From: Bolinopsis microptera | Lineage: Eukaryota; Ctenophora; Tentaculata; Lobata; Bolinopsidae | Direction: 5' to 3' | Assembly: GCF_026151205.1 (NCBI RefSeq) | Contig: NC_087072.1 | Span: 20,922,103 to 20,986,102 of the forward strand | Length of the DNA stretch: 64,000 nt | In this document: positions 43,517 to 64,000 of the stretch, in pieces | How the letters are laid out: each line of letters starts with the position of its first letter | Position numbering within the stretch: the first letter of the stretch is position 1 | Translations under genes and position numbers: made by a program | The notes under the pieces: generated by a model | Told to the model about the DNA's origin: nothing | What the model saw: the letters and a program-made list of their open reading frames with translations, nothing else | Databases searched by the model: none

Positions 43517-43628
43517 AGCATCAAAATGTATTACTATTAGTTTACCTTACTCAGGAATACTATAGCGGGTTAATTTATGACTGGGAAAATTAATGACCGG
43601 GAAAAATATGGCGGAATTTTCCAAAACC

Positions 43629-44519
43629 TGCGCCAGGGTTAGGCCGTATGCCAATGAACATGACAAATCACAAGGAATATTTATAAATGGACACAAAATT
43701 GTCAAGGTTAGCAACACCAAATTTCTTGGTGTAGTAATTGATGAAAAACTTAGCTGGGGCCCACATATAGAATATCTAAGAAAAAAAATTAGATCCACTA
43801 CAGGAGCACTTAACAGGATTAAACATTCAGTTCCAGGGGAACACTACCAAAAAATATACTCTGCATTATTGGAATCACATCTTGCTTACGGAATAAGTGT
43901 TTGGGGCTCAGCTCTCAAAGACCAACCAAACGATAAGCTGTTCATAACTCAGAAACGTTGTATAAGAATCCTTTTTGGAGACCTAAATGCATACCTCGAC
44001 AAACATGCCACTTGTGCACGAGCCAGACCTTATACAAAACAGAGGTTAGGAGCTGCTTTTTTCGAAAAAGAGCACACCAAGCCCATTTTTAATCGACTAA
44101 AATTGCTTACTGTTCAAAACTTGTACAAATACCACTGTATATCTGAGATATTTCGAATTATGAAATTTCGCACTCCATACTCGTTGTATTGTACTATAGA
44201 CTCATCAAAACGTGATACAAGCAATGTCATAATCCTCCCAAGAAAAACCAACACTTTTCTTTATATAGCCTCCAAATTGTGGAATAGCATACATAAACGG
44301 ATTCTAAATGAGAATGGGGAAATCCTCACTACTTCTGTATCTTTGGTTAAATTACGCTGTAAAAGTATCATCCTGGGATCTCAATCCATCAACAATAATA
44401 ACACCTGGACTTACCACAACTTTCACATCGCCCCTCACTCAATCACAGACCAAACCATCTCATCACTCACTCACCAAATTGCCGACCCAATATCTATTGA
44501 AATGGCGAAAATTTTCTAG
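43629..44519 (+). pseudogene. C-terminal part of LINE ORF2 (post-RT region)
   Basis: About 296 codons without interruption. Blocks in order: TCARVRPYANE, FLGVVIDEKLSW, YSALLESHLAYGISVWG, LFITQKRCIRILFGD, KPIFNRLKLLTVQNLYKYHC, then ASKLWNSIHKRIL and a natural stop. It aligns with residues from about 640 onward of the 828-codon frame at 58,908-61,394 and shows how that frame should end. The polymerase and endonuclease domains are absent, so it cannot act alone. An apparent start codon at 43,593 lies in the MITE and is not the real start. Confidence 0.85.
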
Positions 44520-45052
44520 ACAAATGATATTTCGATATTATTGCTGCAGCAGATACAAATACCAACATTATTATATTCCCAAACGTTTGAACCTTTAAAT
44601 TAACTAGGAAAGTCAATCCTCAACTTGACTTTTACTGTTTTAAACAGATATGATGTTATTAACTTAATTTATTATTATTATTTTTTTTTAACATACTCCT
44701 TCTTAGTGTGGTGACTTGGGGTCCATAAATATAGCGGTACAAGCTGATAGGCCGGGGGGAACAACTGGGGTAGGTAGGTAGCCCTGGTGGGTGCGTAAAC
44801 TTTACGGTCTGCTCTCTCCAAGATCAGCCTGCTTCTCCATTTTACCATGAAGCCTAATTTCTAGTTTTTATAAAATATACAATGCAAGTGCAGGTTTACT
44901 AATCTTAATCTACTTAACAACTCAATAGCCCAAGTCACCATACCCGTAGTATATTCCATGGTAATAGAAGAGCTTTAAAGTTTTTCAAATTGTTGCTATA
45001 ATTGATTTAAATAAAAATTTGTTGTTTTCTTGAAAAATTTGTTGTTTTCTTG
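43629..45052 (+). mobile_element. 5'-truncated LINE inserted in the MITE
   Basis: Starts inside the RT ORF and ends in two copies of a tail unit TTGTTGTTTTCTTGAA. Flanked by AAAACC on both sides (43,623-43,628 and 45,053-45,058), as expected for target-primed insertion. The 3' untranslated part contains GGGTGCGTAAACTTTACGGT, which also occurs reversed at 58,096-58,130 in the long LINE, so the two belong to related families with the same 3' end. Confidence 0.82.
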
Positions 45053-45101
45053 AAAACCCACCACTTTATCCCGGTTATAATATTCCGAGTAAGGTAGTTT
45101 A

Positions 45102-47096: not shown

Positions 47097-47963
47097 AATA
47101 GCTTCGGGGTTATGGTTCACCTAACCATGTGCTTTCGCGCCACTGCGGTCGCGCTACTACAAGCGCAAGGGCTCTGGATAGAGCAAAGGTTATGGTTAGG
47201 GTTAGGGTTGAAAACCATAAAAACCAAAGTCACGTGAAATATTTGGGCGAGCGAATTAGTAAAAGACCATTTGCACAGTTCTTCATTGATGTGACAGATT
47301 TAAAAAAACATTATTCTGTCATGATCTCTGTTATTTTATTTAATCTTTGAAATAAAAGATTAATTGAGAAAATTTACTTTAAAAAGCACATCATAATTTT
47401 CCTTTAAAAAAACGGAAAGTTTTGAAATTAAATACTTTTATTGAATTTATAAAGGACAATAAGTCAGTTTGCAAACGGGAAGAGAAGCAAATACGTTCTT
47501 CAAAAAGTTAGCTGATAGAATGTCTAGAAAATGTCAGGCCAAAGATACATTGAAGCGATGTAGTGACTATTATCAGGAAAAGAATAAGATTTGACTTATT
47601 AAAACCGACAATTATTGCTCTTAGAGGAGAAAGAGGGGTAAAAAGTGGTAGTATAGTTAAAATGTCAGATTTAGATTTTAATTTAGAGCCAACAAATTGA
47701 ATTGGCTACTTTTACTACTACTACAAAGGGTTTTTATGAAATTTTCTAAGATTTTTTATTGAATTTTTATATTGAATTTTTATATAGGGTTATTGTTATA
47801 TTATGTGTATATTGTTTGAATAATTTCTTTATTGTTTGCAAACGTTTTTGCTTACAAAATAGTCATAGTTATATTTTAAAATTTCAACTTTCTATTGGGC
47901 ACTTAGCGACTAAATAATAATCCCACATTTATGCTCCCTCAAGCTCCCCACTGTACTTCAAAT

Positions 47964-48180
47964 AAATTTCCTGCACTAACAAATCTATATGATCTTAGGA
48001 TGTAAAATACGCTGAAATAACACTAGTATAGTAGATATAGTAGTATTACGTTTACAATAGTAAAACAAAGTAAATTTCCTGCACTAACAAATCTATATGA
48101 TCTTAGGATGAAAAATACGCTGAAATAACACTAGTATAGTAGATATAGTAGTATTACGTTTACAATAATAGTAACAAGTA
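47964..48180 (+). repeat. 108-bp tandem duplication
   Basis: Two copies starting AAATTTCCTGCACTAAC (47,964 and 48,072) and running through TATGATCTTAGGATG to GTAGTATTACGTTTACAATA. The mirrored arm has the same duplication at about 57,241-57,460, so it predates the inversion-duplication. Confidence 0.85.
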
Positions 48181-48499
48181 CATTTTATAATAATAACATA
48201 GCAAGTACATTTCAGTGGATTTAAAAAAAATTAGATGTGCTGACTTCTGAAGGCCAAAGGGTATCATGAGACGACTCTTTATCTTTTTGCAGGGCCCCTT
48301 CTCATTTAACTCTCAAGTCTCAACCATGTCTCCTATGATTCAGCTGAATGAACCGAGGAGATATTACACAGATATGTAATTTCGCTTGGATCCAATGGAT
48401 AACTATCTACTTCCTAGATTAATGTTGGTGGGGAGATATTTATTATATATTTTTTCACATATTGCGATGATATTTTGTAGACATGTGTGATGATGTGGT

Positions 48500-48790
48500 C
48501 AGTGGTGTAACGTTGCCTGTTGGCGCCCCTCCGCCGAAAATGCGCCCCCCTGTTGGCCCCCCTCCCCTTTTGGCGCCCCTCCCTAAAATTGAACAAATTA
48601 GGTGATTTTAGAGGATATGCTGGTAAAATCTCTAAAAAAGTGTGCTTCTAGAGCAAAACGCGCAGTTTTGCTAGTACCTAAGTTAAGTTTTTCAAAATTG
48701 TCTCACATTCAAACAACGATTTGGCGCCCCCCTCTAAGATGGCGCCCCCCCCCCCCCGCACAGCGGGGTCAGCGGGGCCCTTCGTTACTG
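48500..48790 (+). mobile_element. hAT-type MITE, copy A (left arm)
   Basis: Left terminus CAGTGGTGTAACG; right terminus CGTTACTG, slightly shortened. Flanked by an 8-bp direct duplication GATGTGGT (48,492-48,499 and 48,791-48,798), the size typical of hAT transposons. No coding capacity. Contains C-rich runs. Copy B is the mirror image in the right arm. Confidence 0.85.
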
Positions 48791-48933
48791 GATGTGGTGT
48801 CATAAATTTTACTTTACTTTACTTTACTTTACAGTAAGCCTAAGTATGCTCGTTAGAAAAACTATGAACATGCTAGCTGTCTTTATTTTTGTTAGTCGGC
48901 TGACATCTTGGGTTGTACTGGATGTAACAAGTT

Positions 48934-50035
48934 ATCACATAAAAACTTTCAATACTTGGGGGCAAAATGTTGGAATAATGTTCCAACAGATCTACGAAAT
49001 CTGCCCGATGTTAAAAGCTTTAGTGATTCGTATAAGAAACAGCTACTCTCATCTATAACAACAGACCCTAATTATACCGTCGACAATTCATATGACAAAT
49101 TTTACACTGCAATCATAGTCGACGATAACTAAGTATCTTCTAATTCTTTTAAATCTGAGGCATATATAATTGATGTATCGAAAGGATTTTCCCTTTTTAT
49201 ACCACCTTACCATTTTGATTGATTTTGCACATGACTGACATGTTTTAACTGGAGAAAGGGTTCGCACAGTGGTAGTTTTATAAACCACTTTTAATTTATT
49301 GACCTATTATACCTAGTGGTAGTTTTATAGACCACATTTAATTTATTTACTTATTATACTTAGTATTTATTTTTGGTGACTGTATCACCCAGTTTTAACA
49401 TTTGATAATTGTACAGTTTATTGACGACACATTGACTGAATGTTATTTTATATTCTAATTTATATTCTAGATATTTTATTTATTTTTCAACAGACGGCAA
49501 CTTCCTGTTTTTTCTTCTATATTAGTTACTCATATCTCTCTTTTACAGACTTTTTTACAAGGACATTGACAGATGATACTCACATTAGGCATTCATTATT
49601 GCATCTAAATTATTTCACTTGCATTAGGTTTAGAAATTTATTCTCTGGTTAACAGATTTCAAATGTTTAATTAATTTGTAGTATGACAGTAAGGTATATA
49701 AGAAGTTATTTAATTTTGCTTGGGCTATTATATTGACTATTGAGGTTTAATGATGATATGGAATTTGAATTCTATATAAATTTACACTATGTGGTTGGGG
49801 CATTTTGCATAGTAAATATGGTTACTACTCCTATATATCATATTATTTGATTGGTATTCGATTTCTGATTATTTCCCTAGGAATATGATTATTATATCTC
49901 AATTTGGCTTTAGGTAGCCCCGCTAAAAGAACTGGATTCTTCCAGGAAGCATCCCGTGCACAGACCTTGGTCTACATATATATTAAATTATTAACCATTC
50001 ATTCTGTATGTGCACGAAAATTTATTTCAATCAAA
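48934..50035 (+). mobile_element. 5'-truncated LINE fragment inserted in left arm
   Basis: Flanked by AACAAGTT (48,926-48,933 and 50,036-50,043). The right arm at about 56,490 shows the empty site, so this came in after the arms formed or was lost from the other. The first 200 bp code for YLGAKCWNNVPTDLRNL and SFSDSYKKQLLSS, the typical end of a non-LTR RT ORF, with a stop at about 49,132. The rest is AT-rich 3' untranslated sequence, with a repeated GGTAGTTTTATA phrase at 49,270 and 49,319. Confidence 0.78.
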
Positions 50036-50876
50036 AACAAGTTTATTATCAGATGTCTACTTATATTTATTATGATATCATTATTCATTGTAATGGCAAT
50101 AAAATTTAAATTTTGTTTTACTTAAATTTTGTTTTACTTTACTAGGTGACACTGGCATTACTGGGAACATACACCAATGTATGTTTGTAGAACTTCTTCC
50201 CCTAGGTTAGCTACAGATAGATATTTATATCTGTAGCTGAATAGTACTACCAGGGTGTGGCCAAATATATCAAAACCATACTATACCCCCGAAATGTAAT
50301 TCTTCTTATAAACGTGATGCCGAAGATGAATCTTCTACTGCCTAACAGAAGATCACTTTACAGTATCTTATGAATAGTTTTAAAGCTATGATCATAACAC
50401 CTCTTCATTCACTCAAAATTGTTAAACCTTAGAATCTTTACAGCAAATTACACAATGATAACATGACCTGACGTGTTCATGAGACTCACACTCAGGCAAC
50501 TGGGTCCTTTCACCAGCCACAATAAAATTGTTCATGCCAGTACTGTCATAAACTGTAACCAACTGTTTAAAAATTAGATAGCTTTTGCTAAAATTTTAAA
50601 TTTTAAGTCATAGAGCAATCTTCTCAATTTTATAATTTAAGAATAATATTTTACCCTAACTATGATGTGGTGGCATTTCATACTTAACTAAAATTTAAAT
50701 TTGAAAGTCAATAGATTATTAGTGACAACAAAATTATAGTTTAAGACATCCATTCTGTGCAGTGTTTCCAATATTAGAATTTATGATATGTGTTGATTGA
50801 ATAATTGGTTTAACTAACTTTAATAAATTTAACTTTTGTTTTATTAACTTTTGTTTTATTATTAAATTTATTTTAG

Positions 50877-50973
50877 ATCGTAGTGATGACTTCTGTCTGT
50901 GGTATGAAAAGATGCACCGGAGAACTGTCCCCTTCTATTGGCAAAAGACACTGTGATTATCAGCCATGTCCAG
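50877..50973 (+). CDS. Putative exon, Cys-rich, possibly the end of a thrombospondin type 1 repeat
   Basis: Bounded by TTTTAG and GTTTGT, 97 nt, with one frame open throughout. The peptide has VCGMKRCTG, then GKRHCDYQPCP, with spacing C-x4-C-x12-C-x4-C. The C-D-x-x-P-C-P end is like the last part of a TSP1 domain, but only half a domain would be present, so the match is tentative. It splices in phase 1 to the next exon. The mirrored arm has an identical-looking exon at 55,400-55,496. The parent gene is not in the window. Confidence 0.42.
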
Positions 50974-51175
50974 GTTTGTCCCCTCTTAACTTTTACAGCT
51001 TGCTGAATTTTTCAGAAAGTTCTCGATAAGGAAGATCTTGTTCCATGATATTTTTTCTCGCATTACATTTTCTTATTAAATTAACAATTACCAGTGACTA
51101 AACATCATGAATCACGAGAGGAGGTAGTATTGGTTGGCTTTCCTGCATTGTCATAAAGTTTTTCTTTTTTTACAG

Positions 51176-51244
51176 AATATACCAAAGCTCATCAGATGGA
51201 GCCTCAGCCAGATAAAACCAATGGCACTAAACTATGCACTCAAG
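51176..51244 (+). CDS. Putative second exon, 69 nt, phase 1 at both ends
   Basis: Pyrimidine-rich acceptor TTTTTTTACAG and donor GTAAGT, both strong. The peptide EYTKAHQMEPQPDKTNGTK then LCTQ continues the frame of the previous exon. Symmetric phase-1 exons are common in shuffled extracellular proteins. Mirrored at 55,129-55,197. No further exon is seen downstream because the low-complexity block starts about 95 bp later. Confidence 0.42.
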
Positions 51245-51337
51245 GTAAGTATTTATTAATAAAATATCAGATTCAATTTCAATCTTTAAAAATTTAGAGG
51301 TCAGGCTAGATGGTCAGATCATTAGTTTTCAAAAGTC

Positions 51338-51660
51338 TCAGGAGAAGACTGATAAGGAGGAGGACCTGAGGAAACTGAGGAGGAGGAAGGAGGAGGACTG
51401 AATATAGGAGGGTGACTGGGGAGGACTGAGGAGGAGGGGACTTGGGAGACTGAGATGAGGAGAGGGCCTGACGATAAGATGAGAGAGACTGAGGAGGAGA
51501 CTGAAAATGAGGATGAAGAGTATGAGTAATGAAGAGGATGAGGAGGACCCAGGAGGAGAGGACCAGAGGAGGACCCAGATGAGACTCAGGACGAGGAGAG
51601 AACGACTGAGAGTACTGAGGTGTAGGAAGAGGAGGACGAGGATCCAAAAGCTGGTGTCTC
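51338..51660 (+). repeat. Purine-rich GAGGA/GGAGGAC low-complexity block
   Basis: Long G/A-rich stretch with irregular GAGGAGGA and GGACTGAGG units, starting exactly where the left arm of the inverted repeat ends. Apparent open frames on both strands come from the biased composition and are not taken as genes. Confidence 0.75.
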
Positions 51661-51950
51661 AATTCTCCAATGCCCCTAATATCCATTATTATGTCCCTAA
51701 TGTCCCCAATGTCTCCCAAAGACTCCAATGTCCCCAAGATGTCCCCAAATGTCTCCCAATGTCTCCAAAGCTGTTTCCTCAATGTCCCCAATGTCCTCCA
51801 ATGTCCTCCAATGTCTCCAAAAGCTTCCCCTCCAATGTTCTCCAATGTCTCCAATGTCTCCAATGTCTCCAATGTCTTCGTCTTTTTTCGAAAAGATAAG
51901 GTGCGGGAGACATTGGAGACATGTCACCCCCCCCCCCCCCCCCCCTTATA
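51661..51950 (+). repeat. CCAATGTC-type minisatellite and C run
   Basis: Degenerate repeats of about 9 and 12 bases built on TCCAATGTC / CCCCAATGTC, the most regular at 51,838-51,880. A run of about 20 C at 51,927-51,945 ends the block. Frames on either strand give repeated MSP or GDI peptides, which are composition artefacts. Confidence 0.8.
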
Positions 51951-54771
51951 AAAAGCTTGTAAGAAGAACGAGACTAAAACGAACTACAAGCCCTGACATT
52001 TTCATAGTATTAGGAACAATAATATAGCACTTGTAGAGGTGTATTCTAGAGGCGAGACTGGCTAAATTTATTATTCCAACTATCTAAATTAAACAATATT
52101 GTTGATTTGATCTTGAAGGACCATAATTGTGAGGCCATACTTGCCGAATGATGCAATGTTTATTTCAGTATAACCACTTATGTGACTCAATAAATGTATC
52201 CTTGTAGCCTTGTATCCTTGTGATCCTAGTATCCATGTATCCTATCAGTCCCAGTTTCTACCTAATGCCGTACCAAGCTGTTGATGGCAATATAAACATT
52301 ACCAACTTGAGGATGAACTGATCATCTTGTACTGGTTGGATAATGGATATAGAGAAGAGGATTGAATTCAAAATCTTACATAGAGACACAATTAAAAATG
52401 TAAGGCCACTAACTAAATCGAGATTTTTAAATCAGTAAATTCTTCGCCAGCTGAATAATGTATGTCGTTTGGTCATATTAATAGTAGTAACTGGGATTTT
52501 AATGACAAGCTCAATGCAAACCATTTCATTTATAGTTTACAGGGTTTCCTATTCGTTGTATAACCATATGTTCATTTTCCAAAATTTGATGACACCTTTA
52601 GCTGTTTGGCTCTCGGGTATGATGTATTTTATAATAATATTACAGCAGAGGGTCTCAAAATACGAAAGTTAAATATTTTTGCATATTAAGTCAAAGGTCA
52701 AAAGTCAAAAGTTGAATTCCGAACTTGATAACAAATGTATTTTGAGACACCCTTACCCACAAACTAAACCATATTTTAAAAGTACTTAATTTTATATTCT
52801 AGGAGCATTGTAAAGTACTTCACGAGCAATTGACCAGAAATATCACATCGTTAAAAGAGAGTCGAAAAATATTTTTATCATAATGATATGGGCTTCAATA
52901 TTGAGCCCCCTTTAAGACTGCGATTATCTGACAAAAGTGCATATGTGCATTGCGTTTGATTATCAATTCCATTGATCAACGGTCCATATAATGAAGAACT
53001 GAGACAGCACCTAAAGGTAAGAAAATTTCTACTTTGAAATTTCACAGACACTTTAAAAGTTCCTTAAACGATACTAAATTTGTGTGAAATTTCGAATTGT
53101 ACTAATTTCGAATTTTGTATCATGAAAGTAAATAGAACAATCATCATTGCACTTTCAAATCGACAGAACTCTGGTCAAGTACTCGGAGATACCTGAAACA
53201 ATTAACCAACACAAAATCTAAATATCTATATATAATTACTAAGGTCTAAAATTAAAGATACAATAATACAGTCCACTAAATCAGATGATCTAGGGGTAGG
53301 TTCCCGTATCTCTACCACATACTTGTGCTCTACTGAAACTCAGTCAATATCTCAACTTCGAGCCCTCAGTTTTTTTCCTGGAGCCACAGCTTTTCACTCC
53401 CCGCATATATAGTTCAAGTTGACTAGGGAGGTTTTAGTTTTCACAACGTTAGTATCAGGTAAACTCGAATGGGGTTAACAAAAGTGAAATCCCGTTATAT
53501 AAAGCAATAAGAGTGAGCAAGTCTTTATTTGCTGCTTCGTCACACATATCTTATATTATATTGACTTTAGCAGTCTCATTTTTCTATTGTATTAATATCA
53601 TGTTTACATTATTCAGGAACAGGGACAATTCAGAAAGAAGCAGGATCTTGTCAAGTGAACACCTTTAGTCTCGAAAACTAGTTATTGGTGTTTGGCCTTA
53701 CACCACATTAATTATCGGCTTCAGTGTTATAATCAATGCTCAGGATAGTGATTGAAAGTTGTACAGATACTAACATCTGACAGTTTTTTGCCACCCAACT
53801 GCCATACATGCAGTACAATGTCTATAATTGTCTAAATGTTAAATCCTTACCCCTCCATTTTTGAGTCGACAATTGCGCCAATTTTCGCAATATTCGTTCA
53901 TTTCCTTTATGACAAATTGTAACCCTTCAACTAACACCTTCCATAAGTTATGTCAAAGTATGCATACTGCTTAGCAATATTGCCCTCCCAAAAAGTCCAT
54001 TAATTGTTCAATATAAAATTATAGTAAAGCTTGGTTTTGAGATTGCAGCTGACTGGCAAACTTCGGCCTGTTTCTTCTGACTGGATTTTCAAAAGGTTCT
54101 CGGCTTAAATGCCTATTTTTGGCCTGATACCAATTAACATTTACATTACCAAATTATGCCAGCATTATATTTTCGTTGTTTTAAATTTGTTGATTCTGTA
54201 AAATTTGCTAAAATTAAATTTCTTGTTTCATTGAAGCTCTTGTTTCATTGAAGTTCTTGTTTCATAATTGACTTTGCGCATGGAAATTACTTTACTCTAC
54301 AAAATTTCAACTCCATAAAATTTCAACTCCATAAAATTTCAGTTCAGTTTGGGTGCACAATTTAAATCATCGAATAATCGGACATTGCATATCAGGTTAC
54401 ATGTCCACAATTCCCAATTCTAGTGAAATACCTTATAGACCACATACTGTTGGTTGAAACTTAGTTAGTTTATTCAAGTAGTAAAACTGATGTCCCAAAT
54501 AAGCACCAATGAACTTACCCCAGTGCACATCTTACACCTAACCTTGCAACCTTAACACAACCCTTTAAGACCCGAACTCTGCCCCTAGTATCGAAAGTGC
54601 TGCCATGCATGTTTCATTGACTTTGTGATATATGCAGCACCAAGTCCCTAACTTCCCACAATATTTTACAAGATAGGCTACAGTTAGAGGTGCATATTTG
54701 TGAAATTGGTTTTCTATCCTAAAACCCCTATTCATTAGGGTTAACATGATTGATCTTACATTTATCAAGTA
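51951..54771. other. Spacer of the inverted repeat
   Basis: AT-rich DNA with no gene that I can support. Small repeats: TGTATCCTTG units near 52,195-52,245, CTTGTTTCATTGAAG units near 54,220-54,262, and AAAATTTCAACTCCAT units near 54,300-54,340. Confidence 0.5.
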
Positions 54772-54779
54772 TGTGGAAT

Positions 54780-55016
54780 CAGTGGCGTAACGTTGCCTGT
54801 TGGTGCCCCTCCCTAAAATTGAACAAATTAGGTGATTTAAGAGGTTATGCCGGTAAAATCTCTAAAAAAGTGTGTTTCTAGAGCAAAACGTGCAGTTTTG
54901 CTAGTACCTCAGTTAAGTTTTTCAAAATTGTCCCACATTCAAACGACGATTTGGCGCCCCGCTAAGATAGCACCCCCTGCACAACGGGGTCAGCAGAGCC
55001 CTTCGTTACGCCACTG
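54780..55016 (+). mobile_element. hAT-type MITE, copy C (spacer)
   Basis: Perfect-looking termini CAGTGGCGTAACG and CGTTACGCCACTG, flanked by TGTGGAAT on both sides (54,772-54,779 and 55,017-55,024). It is the same family as copies A and B but lacks the GCGCCCC-rich piece near the left end. The intact termini make it the best reference copy. Confidence 0.92.
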
Positions 55017-55128
55017 TGTGGAATTCTAGTAAGTATAGGACTTTTGAAAACTAATGATCTGACCATCTAGCCTGACCTCTAAATTTTTAAAGATTGAAAT
55101 TGAATCTGATATTATATTAAATACTTAC

Positions 55129-55197
55129 CTTGAGTGCATAGTTTAGTGCCATTGGTTTTATCTGGCTGAGGCTCCATCTGATGAGCTTTGGTATATT
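55129..55197 (-). CDS. Putative second exon, mirrored copy
   Basis: Same 69-nt exon-like segment as 51,176-51,244, on the opposite strand, with GTAAGT donor (55,123-55,128) and TTTTTACAG acceptor. The open frame is preserved. Confidence 0.4.
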
Positions 55198-55399
55198 CTG
55201 TAAAAAAAGAAAAACTTTATGACAATGCAGGAAAGCCAACCAATACTACCTCCTCTCGTGATTCATGATGTTTAGTCACTGGTAATTGTTAATTTAATAA
55301 GAAAATGTAATGCGAGAAAAAATATCATGGAACAAGATCTTCCTTATCGAGAACTTTCTGAACAATTCAGCAAGCTGTAAAAGTTAAGAGGGGACAAAC

Positions 55400-55496
55400 C
55401 TGGACATGGCTGATAATCACAGTGTCTTTTGCCAATAGAAGGGGACAGTTCTCCGGTGCATCTTTTCATACCACAGACAGAAGTCATCACTACGAT
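55400..55496 (-). CDS. Putative Cys-rich exon, mirrored copy
   Basis: Same 97-nt exon-like segment as 50,877-50,973, with the GTTTGTCC donor at 55,392-55,399 and TTTTAG acceptor. The frame and all Cys codons are kept. Both arms thus hold an apparently intact copy of the same two exons, facing each other. Confidence 0.4.
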
Positions 55497-55759
55497 CTAA
55501 AATAAATTTAATAATAAAACAAAAGTTAATAAAACAAAAGTTAAATTTATTACCAATTATTCAATCAACACACATCATAAATTCTAATATTGGAAACACT
55601 GCACAGAATGGATGTCTTAAACTATAATTTTGTTGTAAAAACATACATTGGTGTATGTTCCCAGTAATGCCAGTGTCACCTAGTAAAGTAAAACAAAATT
55701 TAAGTAAAACAAAATTTAAATTTTATTGCCATTACAATGAATAATGATATCATAATAAA

Positions 55760-56460
55760 CAGGGTTGCCGGCATTTTTGAGAGACATTTTTAAGGTTTTT
55801 TCACGTCTTTTAAGGCCCCTTTTGACCCATTTTTAAGGTCCAAAACAGTTAAATTTAAGGTTTTTTAAGGTTTTCCGCTACAGAAATTGCAATTATATGA
55901 CATATCTAAAGGGGGAAGGTATAATTTCAGAAAACCCCAATTAGATCTACAACAAGCTAGGTATAATTTCAGAAAAACCCAATTAGATCTACAACAAGCT
56001 AGGTATAATTTCAGAAAAACCCAATTAGATCTACAACAAGCTAGGTATAATTTCAGAAAAACCCAATTAGATCTACAACAAGCTAGGTATAATTTCAGAA
56101 AAACCCAATTAGATCTACAACAAGCTAGGTATAATTTCAGAAAAACCCAATTAGATCTACACCGAGCTAATTATAATTTCAGAAAACCCCAATTAGATCT
56201 ACACCGAGCTAGGTATAATTTCAGAAAATCTTATCAGGTCTACACCGAGCTAGGTATAATTTCAGAAAATTTCACTAATCCGGAAAATCCATTTAGATCT
56301 ACATCAAGCTAGGTATAATTTAGGTATGGAACCTTAAAAAACCTTAAAAACCCGAAAATTTGCCCGTTTTTCACGTCTTTTTTAAGGTTTTTTGCCCAAA
56401 ATTGCCGTTTTTAAGGTTTTTAAGGTTTTTTAAGGTTTTTAAGGTCCCCCGGCAACCCTG
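55760..56460. mobile_element. hAT-type non-autonomous element carrying a minisatellite
   Basis: Termini CAGGGTTGCCGG and CCGGCAACCCTG, flanked by ATAATAAA (55,752-55,759 and 56,461-56,468), an 8-bp duplication as in hAT elements. The left arm of the inverted repeat shows the empty site at about 50,070. Subterminal parts contain many TTTTTAAGG motifs on both sides. The middle is a 42-bp tandem repeat. No transposase. Confidence 0.9.
55918..56318 (+). repeat. 42-bp minisatellite, about 9.5 units
   Basis: Units of the form GGTATAATTTCAGAAA...CAATTAGATCTACAACAAGCTA begin at 55,918, 55,960, 56,002, 56,044 and so on. The central units are nearly identical; the last three diverge (CACCGAGCT, CATCAAGCT). 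Because 42 is divisible by 3, one frame stays open for 141 codons with a YNFRKTQLDLQQAR repeat. This is most likely by chance of the repeat length. Confidence 0.92.
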
Positions 56461-56633
56461 ATAATAAATATAAGTAGACATCCGATAATAAACTTGTTAC
56501 ATCCAGTACAACCCAAGATGTCAGCCGACTAACAAAAATAAAGACAGCTAGCATGTTCATAGTTTTTCTAACGAGCATACTTAGGCTTACTGTAAAGTAA
56601 AGTAAAGTAAAGTAAAATTTATGACACCACATC

Positions 56634-56920
56634 CAGTAACGAAGGGCCCCGCTGACCCCGCTGTGCAGGGGGGGGGGCGCCATCTTAGAGGGGGGCGCCA
56701 AATCGTTGTTTGAATGTGGGACAATTTTGAAAAACTTAACTTAGGTACTAGCAAAACTGCGCGTTTTGCTCTAGAAGCACACTTTTTTAGAGATTTTACC
56801 AGCATATCCTCTAAAATCACCTAATTTGTTCAATTTTAGGGAGGGGCGCCAAAAGGGGAGGGGCCAACAGGGGGGCGCATTTTCGGCGGAGGGGCGCCAA
56901 CAGGCAACGTTACACCACTG
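56634..56920 (-). mobile_element. hAT-type MITE, copy B (right arm)
   Basis: Mirror image of copy A, with ACCACATC duplications at 56,626-56,633 and 56,921-56,928. It shares copy A's shortened terminus, which shows that A and B are one insertion duplicated with the arm rather than two insertions. Confidence 0.88.
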
Positions 56921-57589
56921 ACCACATCATCACACATGTCTACAAAATATCATCGCAATATGTGAAAAAATATATAATAAATATTTCCCCACCAACATTA
57001 ATCTAGGAAGTAGATAGTTATCCATTGGATCCAAGCGAAATTACATATCTGTGTAATATCTCCTCAGTTCATTCAGCTGAATCATAGGAGACATGGTTGA
57101 GACTTGAGAGTTAAATGAGAAGGGGCCCTGCAAAAAGATAAAGAGTCGTCTCAGGATACCCTTTGGCCTTCAGAAGTCAGCACATCTAATTTTTTTTTAA
57201 ATCCACTGAAATGTACTTGCTATGTTATTATTATAAAATGTACTTGTTACTATTATTGTAAACGTAATACTACTATATCTACTATATACTAGTGTTATTT
57301 CAGCGTATTTTTCATCCTAAGATCATATAGATTTGTTAGTGCAGGAAATTTACTTTGTTTTACTATTGTAAACGTAATACTACTATATCTACTATACTAG
57401 TGTTATTTCAGCGTATTTTTCATCCTAAGATCATATAGATTTGTTAGTGCAGGAAATTTATTTGAAGTACAGTGGGGAGCTGGAGGGAGCATAAATGTGG
57501 GATTATTATTTAGTCGCTAAGTGCCCAATAGAAAGTTGAAATTTTAAAATATAACTATGACTATTTTGTAAGCAAAAACGTTTGCAAAC

Positions 57590-57902: not shown

Positions 57903-57936
57903 GCAAGAAAACAACAATTCAAGAAAACAACAATTT

Positions 57937-58585
57937 TATTTAGTATCAATTAAAGCAAACATAAATATATTTTATATATAACTAGCAGGACCTTTTTACC
58001 AGATATCTTAGGGGACTTGGAGTAGCAAGAGAATGGATAAAGGTATATACCTATTACAAAAATACGTCAAAAAGAATCCAGGGTGATACAGGATCGGAGA
58101 GTGCAGACCGTAAAGTTTACGCACCCAGCCTTGCCTCCTAAATTCTTGGTTGGGTAGGCATTTATGCGAACTTGGTCGTTTATACTCCAAGTCCCTTTGT
58201 TAAAAATTAATAAAATTTATCTCAGGAGTTAACTTCACTCAACAATAATAATATCAATATCAATTTATCGCATAAATTTAACTATCGAATATAGGTTCGA
58301 TTATCAAATATAGGTTCGATCTGATATAAATTTGTAAAATAAAATATTTAATTATTAAAAAAATGACATCAAGTGGTTAAAAATGGATCTGAAAGCTTAA
58401 CAGCTTATAGTTCAATCATGATAGTAATATTAGGTGTGTGCCGCTGCATGTGCAATTTAATTACTGCAATTTAAAATTGGTTGGAGTCCAGGTATCTTTT
58501 AAGTCGGCTGCCTGTGATTGTACTAATAGTGCTTTGGTTCTCAATTTTATCAAGTTAATGGAAGTTTCTAGGCAATTGCTTGAAG
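57937..58585 (-). other. 3' untranslated region of the LINE
   Basis: No open frame of note. Contains TTAAAAATTAATAAAATTTAT and a duplicated ATATAGGTTCGAT phrase at about 58,290-58,325. The segment 58,096-58,130 (reversed GGGTGCGTAAACTTTACGG) matches 44,782-44,822. Confidence 0.6.
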
Positions 58586-58735
58586 TTAGAATTTTTTTTT
58601 ATGAACTGTGTTCCAAAGCTTGGCTGCATTAAACAAAAAGGTATTTGATTTATTTAGAAGAATAACATTTAGACTTGTTGCACGGTTTGAAATGTTGATG
58701 GCCTCATAAAGGGAGTAGGGGCAGTGGTACTTGAA
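58586..58735 (-). pseudogene. LINE ORF2, detached C-terminal end
   Basis: Reads KYHCPYSLYEAINISNRATS then SNTFLFNAAKLWNTVHKKKF, matching the end of the frame at 43,629-44,519 (TPYSLYCTIDSS, NTFLYIASKLWNSIHKRI). It is separated from the main ORF2 frame by about 170 bp of unrelated sequence, so the present reading frame stops too early. Confidence 0.8.
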
Positions 58736-58907
58736 TACAAGGAATACAAGGAATACAAAGGAATACAATACAAGGAATACAAATTTAAAATCTTAAGCTA
58801 CAATAGTAACTGTTAAGATAATAACAATATCATAAGATTTGAATTTATTATATTAATATAACTTAAACTAAAGTGAAACATAAATATTTTGACAAAAAAT
58901 ATTTTGT
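58736..58907. repeat. Insertion in ORF2 with GAATACAAG microsatellite
   Basis: Five imperfect units of GAATACAAG at 58,735-58,785, then AT-rich sequence. It interrupts the ORF2 C-terminal region between the IIKSI and KYHCPYSLY parts. The main frame ends here after a short foreign peptide ALPRRL. Confidence 0.7.
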
Positions 58908-61490
58908 TTACAATCGCCTTGGTAATGCTCTAATGCTCTTGATAATCTTAGAGAATTCTAAAATGCAGTGATATTTGTACAAGTTTTGAGCCGTTAGAAT
59001 TTTTAGTCTATTAAAAATGGGTTTTGTATGCTCCTTTTCAAAGTGTTTATGGTCTAATTTTTGCATACCATACGGTCTAGTACGTGCACATGTTGATTGT
59101 TTATCTAAATATGAGTCGAGATCACCAAAAAGGATCCTTACACAGTGCTTCTGTGTGATAAAAATACTGTCATTTGATCGTTCTTTAAGGACAACGCCCC
59201 AAACACTTATACCATAACTGAGATGTGATTCAAAGAGAGCATTATATATTTTCAAATATAGTTCACCAGGTATCGAGTGTCGAATTCTACAGATTGCACC
59301 AGTCATGGACCGAAGTTTTTTACGAATGTAGTGCATATGGGCAGCCCAGTTTAACTTACTATCTATAACAATACCTAGGAATTTGGTATCCTTGACTTTA
59401 GTAATAACCTTACCATCGATGAATATTGACCTAGACTCATCTAGCAGGTTAGCAAATGGTCTGGTCCTTGCACAGGTCTCATCATATTCAGAGGCAGGTT
59501 TAAAATGGATGTAGCAACATTTAGACATATTGATATGGAGTAGATTACATTTCATGTAAATCGACACATGTTTAAGAACTAAGTTTGCTTTTTTGTATGT
59601 TGCTTCTCTAGATGGTCCTGATATAAAGATATTAGTGTCATCAGCATAAAGTACAAATTTCACCTCACTGTCTGAAAAACAGTTCACTATATCGTTCATA
59701 TACAGTAGAAAGAGTAATGGCCCTAGAATTGACCCCTGTGGTACCCCAAATTTCACATCCATTGTTTCTGATGGTACATCGTTATACATAACATACTGCT
59801 TTCTGTTAGTCAAATAGCTTTTAAGTAGGGTAAGTGCTGTGCCCCTAATACCATAGGAGTTTAACTTGCTTAGAAGAATGTTGTGGTCAAGGGTGTCGAA
59901 GGCTTTGCTTAAGTCAATGAATATTCCTAAGACATGTTTATTGCCAGCTAGAGTCTTTGTAACGGAGTCTATAGATTTGTGTAGAGCATGAGTGGTGGAA
60001 TGACCTTTTCTAAATCCAAACTGTGAGTCTGTCAATACACCTTTAGATGTGAAGAAATTATAGAGCCGTTTGTAAATGATCTTTTCGAAAATTTTTCCAA
60101 ATAAAGGTAATATTGATACAGGCCGATAGTTTTCAATACATTCCTTACTGTCTTTCTTGTAAATAGGAATAACTTTACCAGTTTTAAAAATACTCGGGAA
60201 TGTACCACTGTGTATACATTTGTTGTAAAGCCTGGCCAAGGTACCAGATATGAGCTTTGATGATTTCTTTACAACAATTATTGGTATGTCACTCGCCTTG
60301 CCATTTTGAAAATCTTTGATGACCTCGATTATCTCGTCTTCATTAGTCTCTTCCAGATAAATGGAGTCAGATACTGAGTTTGACATGAACTGAGCAAATG
60401 ATTCTATTGGTTCCAGAGAAATACTATTGTTCGTCAGTGCATTTTTATTGAGATTACTTGCAAGAGATGTAAAATATTCACAAAATTTGTTAGCAATTAT
60501 TCGTCTGCAGGTAACTCTCTGACCGTTTATGACAAAATCGTCCTTACATCGAGACATAGTTTTACCACGGAGTTCATTAATAACTTCCCATGTCTTTTTC
60601 GAGTTCATGCTGTACTTTTCGAATTTTCTAGTGTAGCACATAGCCTTTGCCATATTTATTGAGCTTTTGAGAAACTTGTCGAATTCCTTGTAGCAAATGT
60701 GCTTATTCGGATCCCCGTCAGGTAATTTTAATGTACAAGTCTTTTTCCATTCGAAATACAATCTAGCTTTCTTCTCGATGGAATTGATTAGGCCCTGGGT
60801 AATCCAAGGGTTGGTTATGCTATTACGTTTAGTAGTTCTTGGAGTTAGAAGTTTGCAAGACAAGTCTATTTTTTCTTGAAATAGCTGCATAAAAGAGTCA
60901 AATGTGTCACAACTGTAGTGGAACCTATCTAAATCGTTTTCTATTTCAAGACATAGCTTCTCTAGGTTAGCATTACTATAGTCGTACTGTATAGTAATTT
61001 TGTCTGGTGAATCAGATAGTGACACAGAGTCGGGGGAAAGCTTAACAAAGGTGAATATAGGGTGGTGATGGGAGATCTTGTCAGATATGACACCAGAGAT
61101 AAGGGATTGGTCTAATACATTGGTGTGGATATTGTCAATACAAGTCCTGGAACAACCAGGCATATGGTGAGTTGGCACTGATATAGTTGGTATAAAACCA
61201 TTGTTAAATATTATTTCTTGGAATTTGTCCTCTGATGAAGATGGGTGGTTTAAAATGTTAACATTGAAATCCCCAAGGATATATACCTTCTTGCCATTCA
61301 GTTTAGAGAGAATACGTTCATATGCTTCGTTAAACAGTTCAAGTGATGCGTTTGGGGGACGGTAGATAACCCCTACAACGGTTGGGTCTTTCATACTGGT
61401 GATAGATACAAACAGTGATTCTATGTGCTCATTACAGAGAGATAACCCAGTAATCTTATTAAAGTTTAGAGAGTTGTTCAGGTAAAGACA
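58908..61490 (-). pseudogene. LINE ORF2 main part: endonuclease and reverse transcriptase
   Basis: 828 codons open from the Met at 61,394, and the same frame extends up to the frameshift near 61,490 (GVCLYLNNSL). Endonuclease (APE type): VGVIYRPPN, GDFNVNIL (residues 41-48), CIDNIHTN, and SHHHPIF at 108-114 where related enzymes usually have S-D-H. RT: ENYRPVSILP (421-430), QFGFRKGHST, motif A IFIDLSKAFD (491-500), motif B GVPQGSILGPLLF (550-562), motif C YADD (583-586). Post-RT: FLGIVIDSKLNW, SHLSYGISVWG, HCVRILFGD, KPIFNRLKILTAQNLYKYHC. The polymerase motifs are all intact. It would copy LINE RNA into DNA at a nicked target. Confidence 0.9.
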
Positions 61491-62074
61491 AACTCCTGAT
61501 CCTTAGCCTTGAACTGGTTTTTGTCTTGACAGAAATAACGGGATTGGTAACACGAGGAGTATCCACTAAGCTGACATAGTGTTCCATTGTCAGCATCAGT
61601 GTTTGTTTCTGCAAGACCAATAACAGAAAACTTGTGGTTTATACTAGACTGCTCAACTGCAAAGTTGTCAAAGTTTGTTGCATTCCCATCAATGTTGAAG
61701 AATAAGGTGGACATATATTCGACTGAATTTCCAGGCAGGGTGGTGGCATTCAACTCTGTTATGGAGAATGTTTTGCAGTTTTCAAGAATTTTTGAGCTGT
61801 TGTAGATAGATTCAATATAATTAACTGGCTCATCATCAATAAGGCCGTTGTTAGCAAAGTGGGGAGCTTGGTAGAAAGGGTTGTATCGAATAATATCGTT
61901 GGCTTCAATACAGACTTTGCAGTATATTTCATCTCGAAATTTGACTATGTTGTCATTAGTTTTGCATTTTTTGTGCATTATTTTGTCACACATCTGACAA
62001 ATTATGAAAGGGTGTCCAGCTCGTACAGGTTTATTGCAGCAGCAGCAAATTTCGCATATCAATTTAACTATCAT
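61478..62074 (-). pseudogene. LINE ORF2 N-terminal part: PHD finger and start of endonuclease
   Basis: Starts at ATG 62,074, overlapping the ORF1 stop in ATGA. PHD-type finger at residues 7-55: C7-x2-C10, C26-x2-C29, H34-x2-C37, C52-x2-C55. Then the start of the APE fold: STLFFNIDGNATNF, HKFSVIGLAETN with the catalytic Glu, and QLSGYSSCYQSR. The frame ends at 61,478, one base out of phase with GVCLYLNNSL of the main part. A single lost base in a G run near 61,497 would explain it. PHD fingers in such elements may bind chromatin; that is inference. Confidence 0.85.
62071..62074 (-). promoter_or_regulatory. ORF1 stop / ORF2 start overlap (ATGA)
   Basis: The ORF2 ATG (62,074-62,072) and ORF1 TGA (62,073-62,071) share bases. 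Such overlaps in other LINEs support termination-reinitiation of translation. The context is TTTCAGTCATGATAG. Confidence 0.8.
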
Positions 62075-63999
62075 GACTGAAATATAGATCTACGTGGTCG
62101 TGGGGAAAATCTGCCTTTAGCTTTGGCATTAACAACATCAATGAATGATCTCCCGTCAACAGGGCTACCAAATATCTTATGAGCAATAGCCCGGGAGAGT
62201 TTGAATATACCGTTTGATCCAAGGTGAATTGGGTCATCCGGCTTCTTATATCTACAAAACTGCTGATTCAGCAGACCATCTTCGTCAACAAAGCTATTAA
62301 AATCTAATGTACCTATTCTAGGATTGGTATCACAGTATCCAAATAAAAACCTGTTAAACTCCATAGCCCTTTCGTTCAGCAAGGAGGACCTAGTTGGCAG
62401 TATAGGTGAAACAATTATTTTAGCGTAAGGGCACAATTCACTTATAGTCTTGAGCTTTTTGTTCAGCTCATTTGCCCAATATTTAACATTCCCCCCATCA
62501 TTCTTGATGTTGTTTACTCCACAATGAACTATAATGTTTTTATAACCTACACAAAGGGTAGGATCTAGCTTATCTATGGTGAAGCATTCTATTCTTCTTC
62601 CAGGCAAGCGGTGTCCAAATGTTCCTTTTCCAGACCCAAATCTGAGGTACCGGGTATTGGAATCACCAATTATCAGTGTCGCATTGGTGCTACTGCTTAT
62701 ATATCGGAAGGTGATACTATATCGTAGGTGTCTCTTTTCCGTGCTTTTATCAATTCTGTGGTCCCAGTGAAACTGAGACTGTTTGCTCATAACATAGAGA
62801 CTGCATCCCTCTACTGTCTCTACAATCTCCCCTTCAAGATCACTTTTTTTTGTGAACTTGACAGAGCATTCTCCTCCTAAGGATACTGTAAAGATGGAAC
62901 TATCATGGACCAGTGACTGTTCGTTATCAGAATGCTTAGGAAGGAAGCTGTTCTCGTCGGTGTATCTGTTTATAAGGCACTGGTTAGTCACTGATCCTGG
63001 ATGCTGATCTTTTATTTTAGAGGCTAGCTCAGCAAGAACCTCAGGGAGTTCTGTTGATTTGGGCTTTGCAGCTTTAGCCCCAGGGTAATCGTACGGTTCG
63101 CCAAAGCTCAGAACGTCATGACCATTCTCTGAGTTGCCATCAAAGGCTTCCTTCTGTTGATTAAGGAAAACCAGCAGCTTAGTGTTTAAGTCTGTGTCTA
63201 TGAAGTCCGGGACATACGACACAATGTGCTTGGACTTGGAGTCCTCTGCACTTGCATGCTTCTGCGCATCCAGAAGGAGCTGTTCATTGACTGTCTCAGA
63301 TGCTGCTGGTGACCCTATGTTAAAAGGTGGCATGGGAAGGTCAGGAGTGGACACATTTGATGATCTACTGTTTTTAAAACAGTTGATGTCTAGTTTTAGT
63401 TCAGCGAGCTTTGTGTTGATTGAGTCAAGAGTCCTAAGATGGCTATCGTTGTCTTTCAAGTTTTTAATGGACGTCTGGATGGCTTCTAAGGACTTGTGAA
63501 TGGAGCTTTCGTCTGAAGTAGTATGACCCATTATAATGCTGGAGGGAGCTGACAAGTAGGAAGGGGACTTAGCATCGTCACATTTCTTGCCACTCACTAC
63601 AGCACAAACATTTTCAGCAAGCCCAAGCAAGGATAGGAGACCCTCTGCTAGAGTAATTTTTTTAAGAGAAGAACAACCCTTAACCATGGATGGTGTAATG
63701 ATTGCAAATTTGTTGATATCAATTTTGAGAATACTACAAATGTTTAGCTTGATTATGTCTATCTCTGAGCGTAGGCTCTGCGAATGGGTCAACAGAAAGT
63801 TGTCGAGGGGGGCAGACCCATTTGAGAAGAAACTCAGAAGGCTACTACAATTTTTATGTTCTTCTGATTCATGGTATTCTGAAAGAATTATTTTTTCAAC
63901 GTCCTTCAGTACTTCGTCAATATCCCCAATGACGGTAGGAGTGTTGGATGTAGTCTGGTCCGGAACCGTGGTAGAAGAAGTCTGGTCCGGAACAGGTTG
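62071..63999 (-). CDS. LINE ORF1: AlkB-like dioxygenase fused to SGNH esterase (5' partial)
   Basis: At least 642 codons, still open at the window edge; the real start is not visible. Residue numbers count from the TTG codon at 63,792, 69 codons in. N-terminal part: VPDQT repeats near 63,940-63,998 and a helical, coiled-coil-like stretch at 97-140. AlkB-like domain at about 190-366: NRYTDENSFLPKHSD gives the H-x-D iron ligands (H287, D289), FHWDHRI the distal His (H345), and RYSITFR the R-x5-R pair (R357, R363) that binds 2-oxoglutarate in AlkB and ALKBH2. SGNH domain at 372-545: IGDSN (S378), CGVNN (N427), DPIHLGSNG (D520, H523). SGNH esterase in ORF1 is known from CR1/L2 elements; the AlkB fusion is the unusual part. 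All catalytic residues are present, so both could be active. Confidence 0.9.
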   Translation of the reverse strand, partial: QPVPDQTSSTTVPDQTTSNTPTVIGDIDEVLKDVEKIILSEYHESEEHKNCSSLLSFFSNGSAPLDNFLLTHSQSLRSEIDIIKLNICSILKIDINKFAIITPSMVKGCSSLKKITLAEGLLSLLGLAENVCAVVSGKKCDDAKSPSYLSAPSSIIMGHTTSDESSIHKSLEAIQTSIKNLKDNDSHLRTLDSINTKLAELKLDINCFKNSRSSNVSTPDLPMPPFNIGSPAASETVNEQLLLDAQKHASAEDSKSKHIVSYVPDFIDTDLNTKLLVFLNQQKEAFDGNSENGHDVLSFGEPYDYPGAKAAKPKSTELPEVLAELASKIKDQHPGSVTNQCLINRYTDENSFLPKHSDNEQSLVHDSSIFTVSLGGECSVKFTKKSDLEGEIVETVEGCSLYVMSKQSQFHWDHRIDKSTEKRHLRYSITFRYISSSTNATLIIGDSNTRYLRFGSGKGTFGHRLPGRRIECFTIDKLDPTLCVGYKNIIVHCGVNNIKNDGGNVKYWANELNKKLKTISELCPYAKIIVSPILPTRSSLLNERAMEFNRFLFGYCDTNPRIGTLDFNSFVDEDGLLNQQFCRYKKPDDPIHLGSNGIFKLSRAIAHKIFGSPVDGRSFIDVVNAKAKGRFSPRPRRSIFQS

Positions 64000-64000
64000 A

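Follow-up and report, generated by a model that had tools for sequence, protein, structure and literature searches.

An AlkB-type dioxygenase domain fused to an SGNH esterase in ORF1 of a LINE from the ctenophore Bolinopsis microptera, with relatives in other LINEs and in Helitrons

We analysed a stretch of 64,000 nucleotides from the ctenophore Bolinopsis microptera (contig NC_087072.1, positions 20,922,103 to 20,986,102; hereafter the window) and found, at its far end and on the reverse strand, a long interspersed nuclear element (LINE) whose first open reading frame (ORF1) joins an AlkB domain, a 2-oxoglutarate (2OG) and Fe(II) dioxygenase, to an SGNH esterase. Its ORF2 carries a PHD finger, an APE-type endonuclease and a reverse transcriptase (RT), and LINEs with this arrangement, AlkB-SGNH in ORF1 and PHD-APE-RT in ORF2, are referred to below as clan A. 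The window LINE is a non-LTR (long terminal repeat) retrotransposon of, by its domain content, CR1/L2-like make-up. The element and its ORF1 are laid out as follows, in window positions.

57904..64000, continuing to about 64207 beyond the window, minus strand: LINE (non-LTR retrotransposon) of about 6.3 kb, by blastn against one other copy (L036/L037)
62071..63999, minus strand: ORF1, comprising an N-terminal region, AlkB, SGNH and an Arg-rich tail, by reading frame and Pfam
62686..63252, minus strand: AlkB (2OG-Fe(II) dioxygenase) domain, by PF13532 (E = 4.5e-17), invariant columns and a fold match to ALKBH3 (E = 8.0e-14)
62932-62934 (His), 62926-62928 (Asp) and 62758-62760 (distal His), minus strand: AlkB iron ligands, by alignment and residue census
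62722-62724 and 62704-62706, minus strand: the two Arg of the AlkB 2OG site, by alignment and residue census
62920-62922, minus strand: Glu of H-x-D-x-E, by alignment and residue census
62173..62688, minus strand: SGNH esterase domain, by profile match to PDB 4c1b (E = 5.1e-8)
62659-62661, minus strand: SGNH catalytic Ser (GDSN), invariant in 10/10 clan A rows
Residues 496 (Asn of GVNN) and 589 and 592 (Asp and His of DPIHLG) of the ORF1 frame P0001, minus strand: remaining SGNH residues, invariant in 10/10 clan A rows

The ends of the LINE are the points where similarity to that one other copy stops, and the true 5' end would lie further out if either copy is 5'-truncated. Inside the window the ORF1 frame (P0001) has 642 amino acids and is open to the window end at 63999; in its genome context (locus L009) the full ORF1 has 658 amino acids, with its ATG at about 64047, 48 nt past the window. 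No Pfam family over its cut-off was found in the N-terminal region. The initial annotation had proposed, from the letters of the window, that AlkB and SGNH are fused in one intact LINE ORF1 frame. The motifs it named, KHSD (His and Asp), the second His of FHWDHRI, RYSITFR (both Arg), GDSN, GVNN and DPIHLG, lie where it had placed them, and the fusion was borne out by a Pfam match to PF13532 over residues 301-432, by a match to 4c1b, the ORF1 esterase of the LINE ZfL2-1, and by the predicted fold. Searching the Protein Data Bank (PDB) with the single window ORF1 (phmmer) gave ALKBH3 (E = 1.7e-6), then ALKBH2, and then 4c1b (E = 0.0012). A profile built from 19 AlkB domains of transposable elements (TEs), chosen from 35 TE frames with near-duplicates and some others left out, matched ALKBH3 (1.4e-30), ALKBH2 (2.5e-27), ALKBH8 (2.3e-18) and E. 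coli AlkB (3.7e-10) and, more weakly, S. pombe Ofd2 (8.8e-7), a rice 2OG-Fe protein (1.3e-6), C. elegans NMAD-1 (1.2e-4) and ALKBH6 (6.2e-4), and ALKBH5 and FTO were absent from the 40 PDB sequences found by this profile at E<=0.001. Structure prediction, on which the initial annotation had staked its reading, returned an AlkB fold: the AlphaFold2 model of the 373-residue AlkB-SGNH module, computed from a 16-row alignment, had a mean predicted local distance difference test score (pLDDT) of 82.1 and a predicted template modelling score (pTM) of 0.60. Among the best 50 of 395 Foldseek matches of this model to PDB at E<=0.001, ALKBH3 complexes with single-stranded DNA (ssDNA) came first (8.0e-14) and ALKBH2 with double-stranded DNA (dsDNA) next (4.4e-13); the match of the predicted model to ALKBH3 had a target-normalised TM score of 0.71, and the fold alignments to human ALKBH3 and ALKBH2 showed about 20-25% identity. 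Against viral models, giant-virus AlkB proteins ranked high and plant RNA virus replicases lower down.

The active site was kept throughout. Across the 19 aligned TE AlkBs, which are 19-81% identical to the first row, 15 columns were invariant, among them the metal and 2OG ligands (H111, D113, H169, R181 and R187), Y101 of an N-x-Y and E115 of H-x-D-x-E, a Glu that is the substrate-side acid. In a wider residue census of 41 frames (35 TE and 6 host, with L001/L026 and L002/L027 as host duplicates and L005/L017 and L007/L011 as TE duplicates, leaving 33 distinct TE places), the five ligands H-x-D...H...R-x5-R and the Glu were kept in all 35 TE frames, some of them only about 20% identical to the window's, so that the conservation of H, D, H and both Arg in other copies, which the initial annotation had asked of its reading, was found. 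The N-x-Y before the first His has its Tyr in 35/35 and its Asn in 30/35 frames, and is intact in the window copy. The HWxH layout described earlier held in part: its distal His is kept in all frames, its first His is not (FLWDHRI in L031-L033), and W-x-H occurs only in some families. Host ALKBH8 has H-x-D-x-H instead of the H-x-D-x-E of the TEs. By alignment and predicted fold, the domain is a complete AlkB of the ALKBH2/3 type, nearest to ALKBH3 and then ALKBH2, which is the affinity that the initial annotation had proposed.

The esterase follows directly after AlkB in the window's clan. The Pfam GDSL family matched window ORF1 weakly (0.0024, under its cut-off), and a profile of ten relatives found 4c1b as its best PDB match. 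The full set of Ser, Asn, Asp and His was seen in 22 of the 25 SGNH-bearing frames of the census alignment, where the Ser position of L020, L022 and L041 holds a gap or a different residue; another alignment gives Ser in all 16 rows. The AlkB site is kept at least as strictly as the esterase site.

Codon comparisons indicate purifying selection on the AlkB catalytic site of LINE ORF1. The ratio of nonsynonymous to synonymous differences per site (pN/pS, from uncorrected distances and pairs that share rows) was about 0.03 (from 0.027) for the window AlkB against either of two close copies and 0.075-0.28 for ten pairs of greater divergence, drawn from clan A, from two further LINE groups described below (clans B and C) and from Helitrons, and neutrality was rejected in 12 of the 16 AlkB comparisons (p 6.6e-6 to 2.7e-29). 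Clan C (L013, L014, L045) had the lowest values among the diverged pairs, 0.075-0.097. When the domains were taken separately, dN/dS was 0.03-0.13 for AlkB and 0.05-0.11 for SGNH in the five pairs with computable dS (it was not computable for the far pairs L034 and L035 and for most of L019); for the two closest pairs the values in the short C-terminal tail of ORF1 were 0.48 and 0.98, and in the N-terminal region of the L019 ORF1 the value was 0.60.

The domain is spread through the genome. Across its 264.65 Mb we found at least 151 scored matches to PF13532, host genes included, from 587 candidates. Window ORF1 itself has 69 dispersed matches at E<=1e-20, of which 57 lack inner stops and many are partial; eight are 98-100% identical (the window included, five of them full-length), a larger group lies at 78-81% and another at 50-53%. 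Among the 150 listed PF13532 places, 29 were examined and comprised 21 of LINE type, four of Helitron type and four of host type, and an RT was found downstream in 20 of the 21 LINE-type places (all but L018), either in the flanking sequence or among the listed RT matches. Conversely, among the best 150 of 6502 RT candidates, an AlkB or window-ORF1 match is listed less than 7 kb upstream and on the same strand in 44 cases, and in three cases such a match is listed in any other arrangement; the AlkB list, too, holds only part of the matches. The host-type genes are ALKBH2, ALKBH3, ALKBH8 and an ALKBH3-like frame at L003:1063-1950, around which neither SGNH nor RT was detected in 3.4 kb and which is possibly a second host ALKBH3-like gene. 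Of two ionotropic glutamate receptors (iGluRs) in this genome, L039 has the Mnemiopsis leidyi iGluR ML032222a as its best PDB match, which weakly favours a ctenophore, and L038 is matched best by receptors of vertebrates. Exact peptide patterns of the window AlkB-SGNH module, the only kind of search made there, gave no match in viral contigs.

AlkB is not confined to one element: it occurs in Helitrons and in groups of LINEs whose RTs differ deeply. Clan B (L011, L020, L022) has AlkB, a linker and SGNH, and PHD was not found in it. In clan C, AlkB sits close to the N-terminus, coiled-coil families match weakly, the RT is distant from those of A and B, and SGNH was not found; L041 is intermediate between clans, and two clan A members (L019, L040) have a weak PHD match, under cut-off, in ORF1 as well. 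The Helitrons L016 and L025 have a weak N-terminal GDSL match followed by AlkB, DUF6570 and the Pfam Helitron Rep domain, and that of L016 (contig C3) has its PIF1 helicase in L046. The AlkB frames of Helitrons are 2459-3388 amino acids long; L015 and L017 are classed with them by near-identical AlkB and long frames, the Pfam Rep evidence being for L016 and L025 only. In an RT tree of this genome, clans A (100/99) and B (100/100) were recovered and C was set apart (98/96). An RT in L014 for which no AlkB frame was found on its strand (L014x) fell on the A/B side, where the order is unresolved, so that the AlkB LINEs do not form one demonstrable RT clade. In a 20-row AlkB tree, clan C grouped with host ALKBH2/3 (96/94, starred), and A, B, L041 and the Helitrons came together (78/79, not starred); a 24-row tree gave 81/66 for A, B and the Helitrons and 83/75 for A and B. 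Because starred branches set clan C with host ALKBH2/3, the sequences favour two or more acquisitions of AlkB by the elements, and a single uptake is compatible with the approximately unbiased (AU) test, which rejected neither a single clade of all 16 TE AlkBs (p 0.167) nor a LINE-only clade (p 0.077).

Downstream of ORF1, the rest of the LINE comprises the following features.

62071..62074, minus strand: ATGA, in which the ORF2 start overlaps the ORF1 stop, by sequence
61910..62047, minus strand: PHD-type C4HC3 zinc finger at the ORF2 N-terminus, by alignment of seven relatives and PDB profile matches
61478..62089, minus strand: 5' frame of ORF2, with PHD and the start of the endonuclease, frameshifted against the next frame
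58908..61502, minus strand: 3' frame of ORF2, with the rest of the endonuclease and the RT (RVT_1, E = 2.6e-36), ending early inside the nested insert
About 58735..58937, minus strand: nested 203-bp insert ending in (TTGTATTCC)n, which interrupts ORF2 and is missing from copy L037
57904..57935, minus strand: 3'-terminal tandem repeat of the LINE, (AATTGTTGTTTTCTTG)n, by sequence repeats and copy comparison

The PHD-endonuclease-RT ORF2 that had been described beside ORF1 was recovered by the finger alignment and profile and by RVT_1. The finger profile matched PDB PHD fingers at 5e-6 and weaker, and Pfam gave no PHD match on the window ORF2 5' frame alone. The endonuclease of the window ORF2 reached Exo_endo_phos_2 at 0.00069, under its Pfam cut-off, and in the ORF2 of L019 RVT_1 and Exo_endo_phos are both over theirs. 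Both the PHD finger and the esterase, which are on record for CR1/L2 lineages, are present in the window LINE. LINEs of the CR1/L2 lineage end in 3'-terminal short tandem repeats instead of poly(A), and the window LINE ends, at 57904, in (AATTGTTGTTTTCTTG)n, a short tandem repeat rather than poly(A). The arrangement of the two frames suggests stop-start translational coupling of ORF1 and ORF2. In nine clan A loci (L009, L019, L023, L024, L028, L029, L040, L042, L043) the distance from the ORF1 stop to the ORF2 start is -1 to +16 nt, with a start/stop overlap as ATGA in four of them (L009, L029, L024, L028); in L040 an ATGA is also present, yet the ORF2 frame begins at +7.

The window ORF2 itself is broken, by a frameshift between two frames that overlap at 61478-61502 and by the 203-bp insert, which, compared with the insert-free copy L037, has a 5-base overlap of its two flanks and is probably the 5'-truncated tail of another LINE that jumped into this one. 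On contig C2 another copy has its ORF2 in one unbroken frame of 1139 amino acids, so that the family includes intact elements, and the copy in the window is a damaged one. Elsewhere in the window, a related LINE fragment at 43581-45056 holds an RT C-terminal frame, matches the window family at 72% DNA identity over 289 bp and has a similar 3' terminal repeat at 45013-45056. A large inverted-repeat (foldback) element occupies 47834-57589, with outer arms of about 1.1 kb at 98-99% identity, inner arms, tips GTTTGCAAACGTTTTTGC and, as its sole frame of at least 150 amino acids, a low-complexity one at 51306-51923.

LINE ORF1 proteins are RNA-binding scaffolds, sometimes with an esterase, and ALKBH3-type enzymes take single-stranded nucleic acid as their substrate. 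We hypothesise that the AlkB domain of the LINEs clears groups of the N1-methyladenine (m1A) and N3-methylcytosine (m3C) type from the element's own single-stranded nucleic acid, keeping the template readable for reverse transcription, and from the sequences and the model we hold this somewhat more probable than an even chance. The ORF1 protein would sit on the element RNA, and perhaps on nascent cDNA, in the ribonucleoprotein, where its AlkB domain would remove such groups; the template could then stay readable for target-primed reverse transcription and the cDNA or ssDNA would be protected, and the esterase may give contact to lipid or membrane, by analogy with what was proposed for ZfL2-1. 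Since m1A and m3C carry their groups on the pairing face and there stop reverse transcription, removal would keep the template readable. AlkB is described as removing m1A and m3C from RNA and DNA (PMC7968990, in the available part of its text), and methylated nucleosides as interfering with reverse transcription (PMC8053708, likewise in part). The role that the initial annotation had suggested, a demethylase of the element's own that protects RNA template or cDNA, fits this evidence, and we infer the enzymatic activity, the substrate, the binding in the ribonucleoprotein and the benefit to the element from sequence.

Several observations weigh against this proposal. Five of the 35 TE frames (L019, L022, L024, L028, L041) have Ser or Thr in place of the Asn of N-x-Y, and loci were chosen mainly from high-scoring matches, which favours intact domains. 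With a pTM of only 0.60, the mutual arrangement of AlkB and SGNH is not fixed by the model. Neutrality was not rejected in four of the 16 AlkB pairs, which have too few changes (L029-L030 with pN/pS 0.54, L016-L015 with 0.87, and L034-L035 and L042-L043 without synonymous change). No listed AlkB or ORF1 match lies upstream of 106 of the best 150 RT matches, so that many LINEs of this genome may lack the domain. Finally, Helitrons have no RNA-template step and move through ssDNA; as they also carry AlkB, reverse transcription would not be the whole explanation unless protection of ssDNA is included.

Alternatively, the domain could act as an epitranscriptomic eraser that strips host N6-methyladenosine (m6A) or m1A marks from the element RNA, escaping surveillance or tuning translation. 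An AlkB of an orchid Ty3/Gypsy element demethylates m6A in vitro (PMC9289625), and retrotransposition of L1 is reported to be helped by METTL3 and suppressed by ALKBH5 (PMC7873242). The TE domains, however, resemble ALKBH3 and ALKBH2, whereas that of the orchid is ALKBH5-like, and Helitrons, which have a domain of this kind too, speak for a substrate compatible with DNA. Because ALKBH5 and FTO were not matched, we regard erasure of m6A in particular as less likely, and repair of the m1A/m3C type is favoured over it because ALKBH3 and ALKBH2 are the best matches, ALKBH5 and FTO go unmatched and H-x-D-x-E differs from host ALKBH8; overall, an eraser seems to us rather unlikely. Slightly less likely still is that the substrate is DNA, the domain removing alkyl lesions or N6-methyladenine at the target site, on nascent cDNA or on intermediates that are ssDNA. 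The best fold matches, ALKBH3 on ssDNA and ALKBH2 on dsDNA, point this way, as do the AlkB domains of Helitrons, which move through ssDNA, and the C. elegans N6-methyladenine demethylase NMAD-1 among the weaker matches; but ALKBH3 acts on both DNA and RNA, and the present data do not separate the two. It is improbable that the AlkB fold persists because it binds nucleic acid or has a structural role in the ORF1 protein, with catalysis incidental. No RRM or CCHC domain over its Pfam cut-off was found in four clan A ORF1s (the window family, L019, L040 and L023; P0001 has a chance-level match of 0.28 to an RRM family), so that AlkB could supply the binding, yet all metal and 2OG ligands are invariant and intact in 35/35 frames, a conservation that mere binding would not call for. 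The chance capture of a host ALKBH gene, or the position of such a gene beside a LINE, is rejected as very improbable, although host ALKBH2, ALKBH3 and ALKBH8 genes exist in the genome, given the same-frame fusion to SGNH, the copy structure with 69 dispersed ORF1 matches, the AlkB-then-RT order and the low identity of the window AlkB to host ALKBH3 (32% over 106 residues).

If the LINE domain does clear m1A and m3C groups that block reverse transcription, this would show that methylation of the template limits retrotransposition, and the element would do in nature what AlkB is used for in the laboratory, where it unblocks reverse transcription. With a complete demethylase domain in ORF1, the LINE life cycle would gain a catalytic step open to direct testing. 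Domains of one kind in LINEs with deeply different RTs and in the Helitrons that share their genome suggest that single-stranded mobile DNA and RNA are under a common pressure. Tentatively, and with the odds against it, we consider that mobile elements with exposed single-stranded genomes, at least two deeply separate LINE groups (RNA template and nascent cDNA) and Helitrons (ssDNA), acquired ALKBH2/3-type demethylases independently, or passed them among each other, within a single animal lineage. If so, base methylation or alkylation of single-stranded nucleic acid would be a strong brake on transposition in this lineage, perhaps as a host defence that methylates foreign or single-stranded nucleic acid, to which the AlkB of the elements would be the counter-measure.

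Among known systems, human ALKBH3 and ALKBH2 share the fold, H-x-D...H, R-x5-R and H-x-D-x-E with the domain described here and are its best PDB profile and Foldseek matches, whereas the AlkB of the window forms part of a transposon ORF1, in which it is joined to an SGNH esterase. The window LINE resembles CR1/L2 elements with a type IV ORF1 (esterase, e.g. ZfL2-1) in having SGNH in ORF1 together with endonuclease and RT, and L2 subgroup 5 in having PHD at the ORF2 start (PMC4120745), and differs from the former in adding AlkB just before the esterase. In its accessible text, that 2014 survey of CR1, L2 and Jockey ORF1s distinguishes RRM/CCHC, coiled-coil, PHD and esterase types and contains no word beginning with AlkB or oxygenase (the word 'dioxygenase' was not searched for). 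It gives the esterase type for vertebrate groups only, and PMC3905857, in the part available, for chordates, cnidarians and sponges; the latter also describes binding of acidic phospholipids by the ZfL2-1 esterase, and, because it knows the esterase from RTEX and Penelope-like elements too, the domain is not exclusive to CR1/L2. Rotifer LTR retrotransposons with GDSL/DEDDy ORF3s likewise have an accessory GDSL module common to unrelated element classes in one host (PMC5408684, whose accessible text yields no word that starts with AlkB or oxygenase). No AlkB in a LINE or Helitron appears in the listed titles and abstracts of the open-licence literature, a scope outside which lie subscription papers, preprints and Repbase, so that an earlier description may exist in print. 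Plant RNA viruses (Alpha- and Betaflexiviridae, Closteroviridae) have AlkB in a single-stranded RNA replicon, and their predicted structures match our model, the difference being a viral replicase context with no reverse transcription; a role in RNA repair has been postulated for them (as cited in the available text of PMC9289625). A precedent for an AlkB in a retrotransposon is the orchid Ty3/Gypsy element Gypsy_Pa_2799 of the same paper, as far as its available text goes, which acquired an ALKBH5-like domain as ORF2 with intact cofactor residues. It is an LTR element of a plant with an ALKBH5-type domain in a separate ORF, a type in which the TE AlkBs described here do not fall (ALKBH5 is unlisted at E<=0.001), whereas these are LINEs and Helitrons of an animal that carry an ALKBH2/3-type domain within ORF1 or the Helitron frame.

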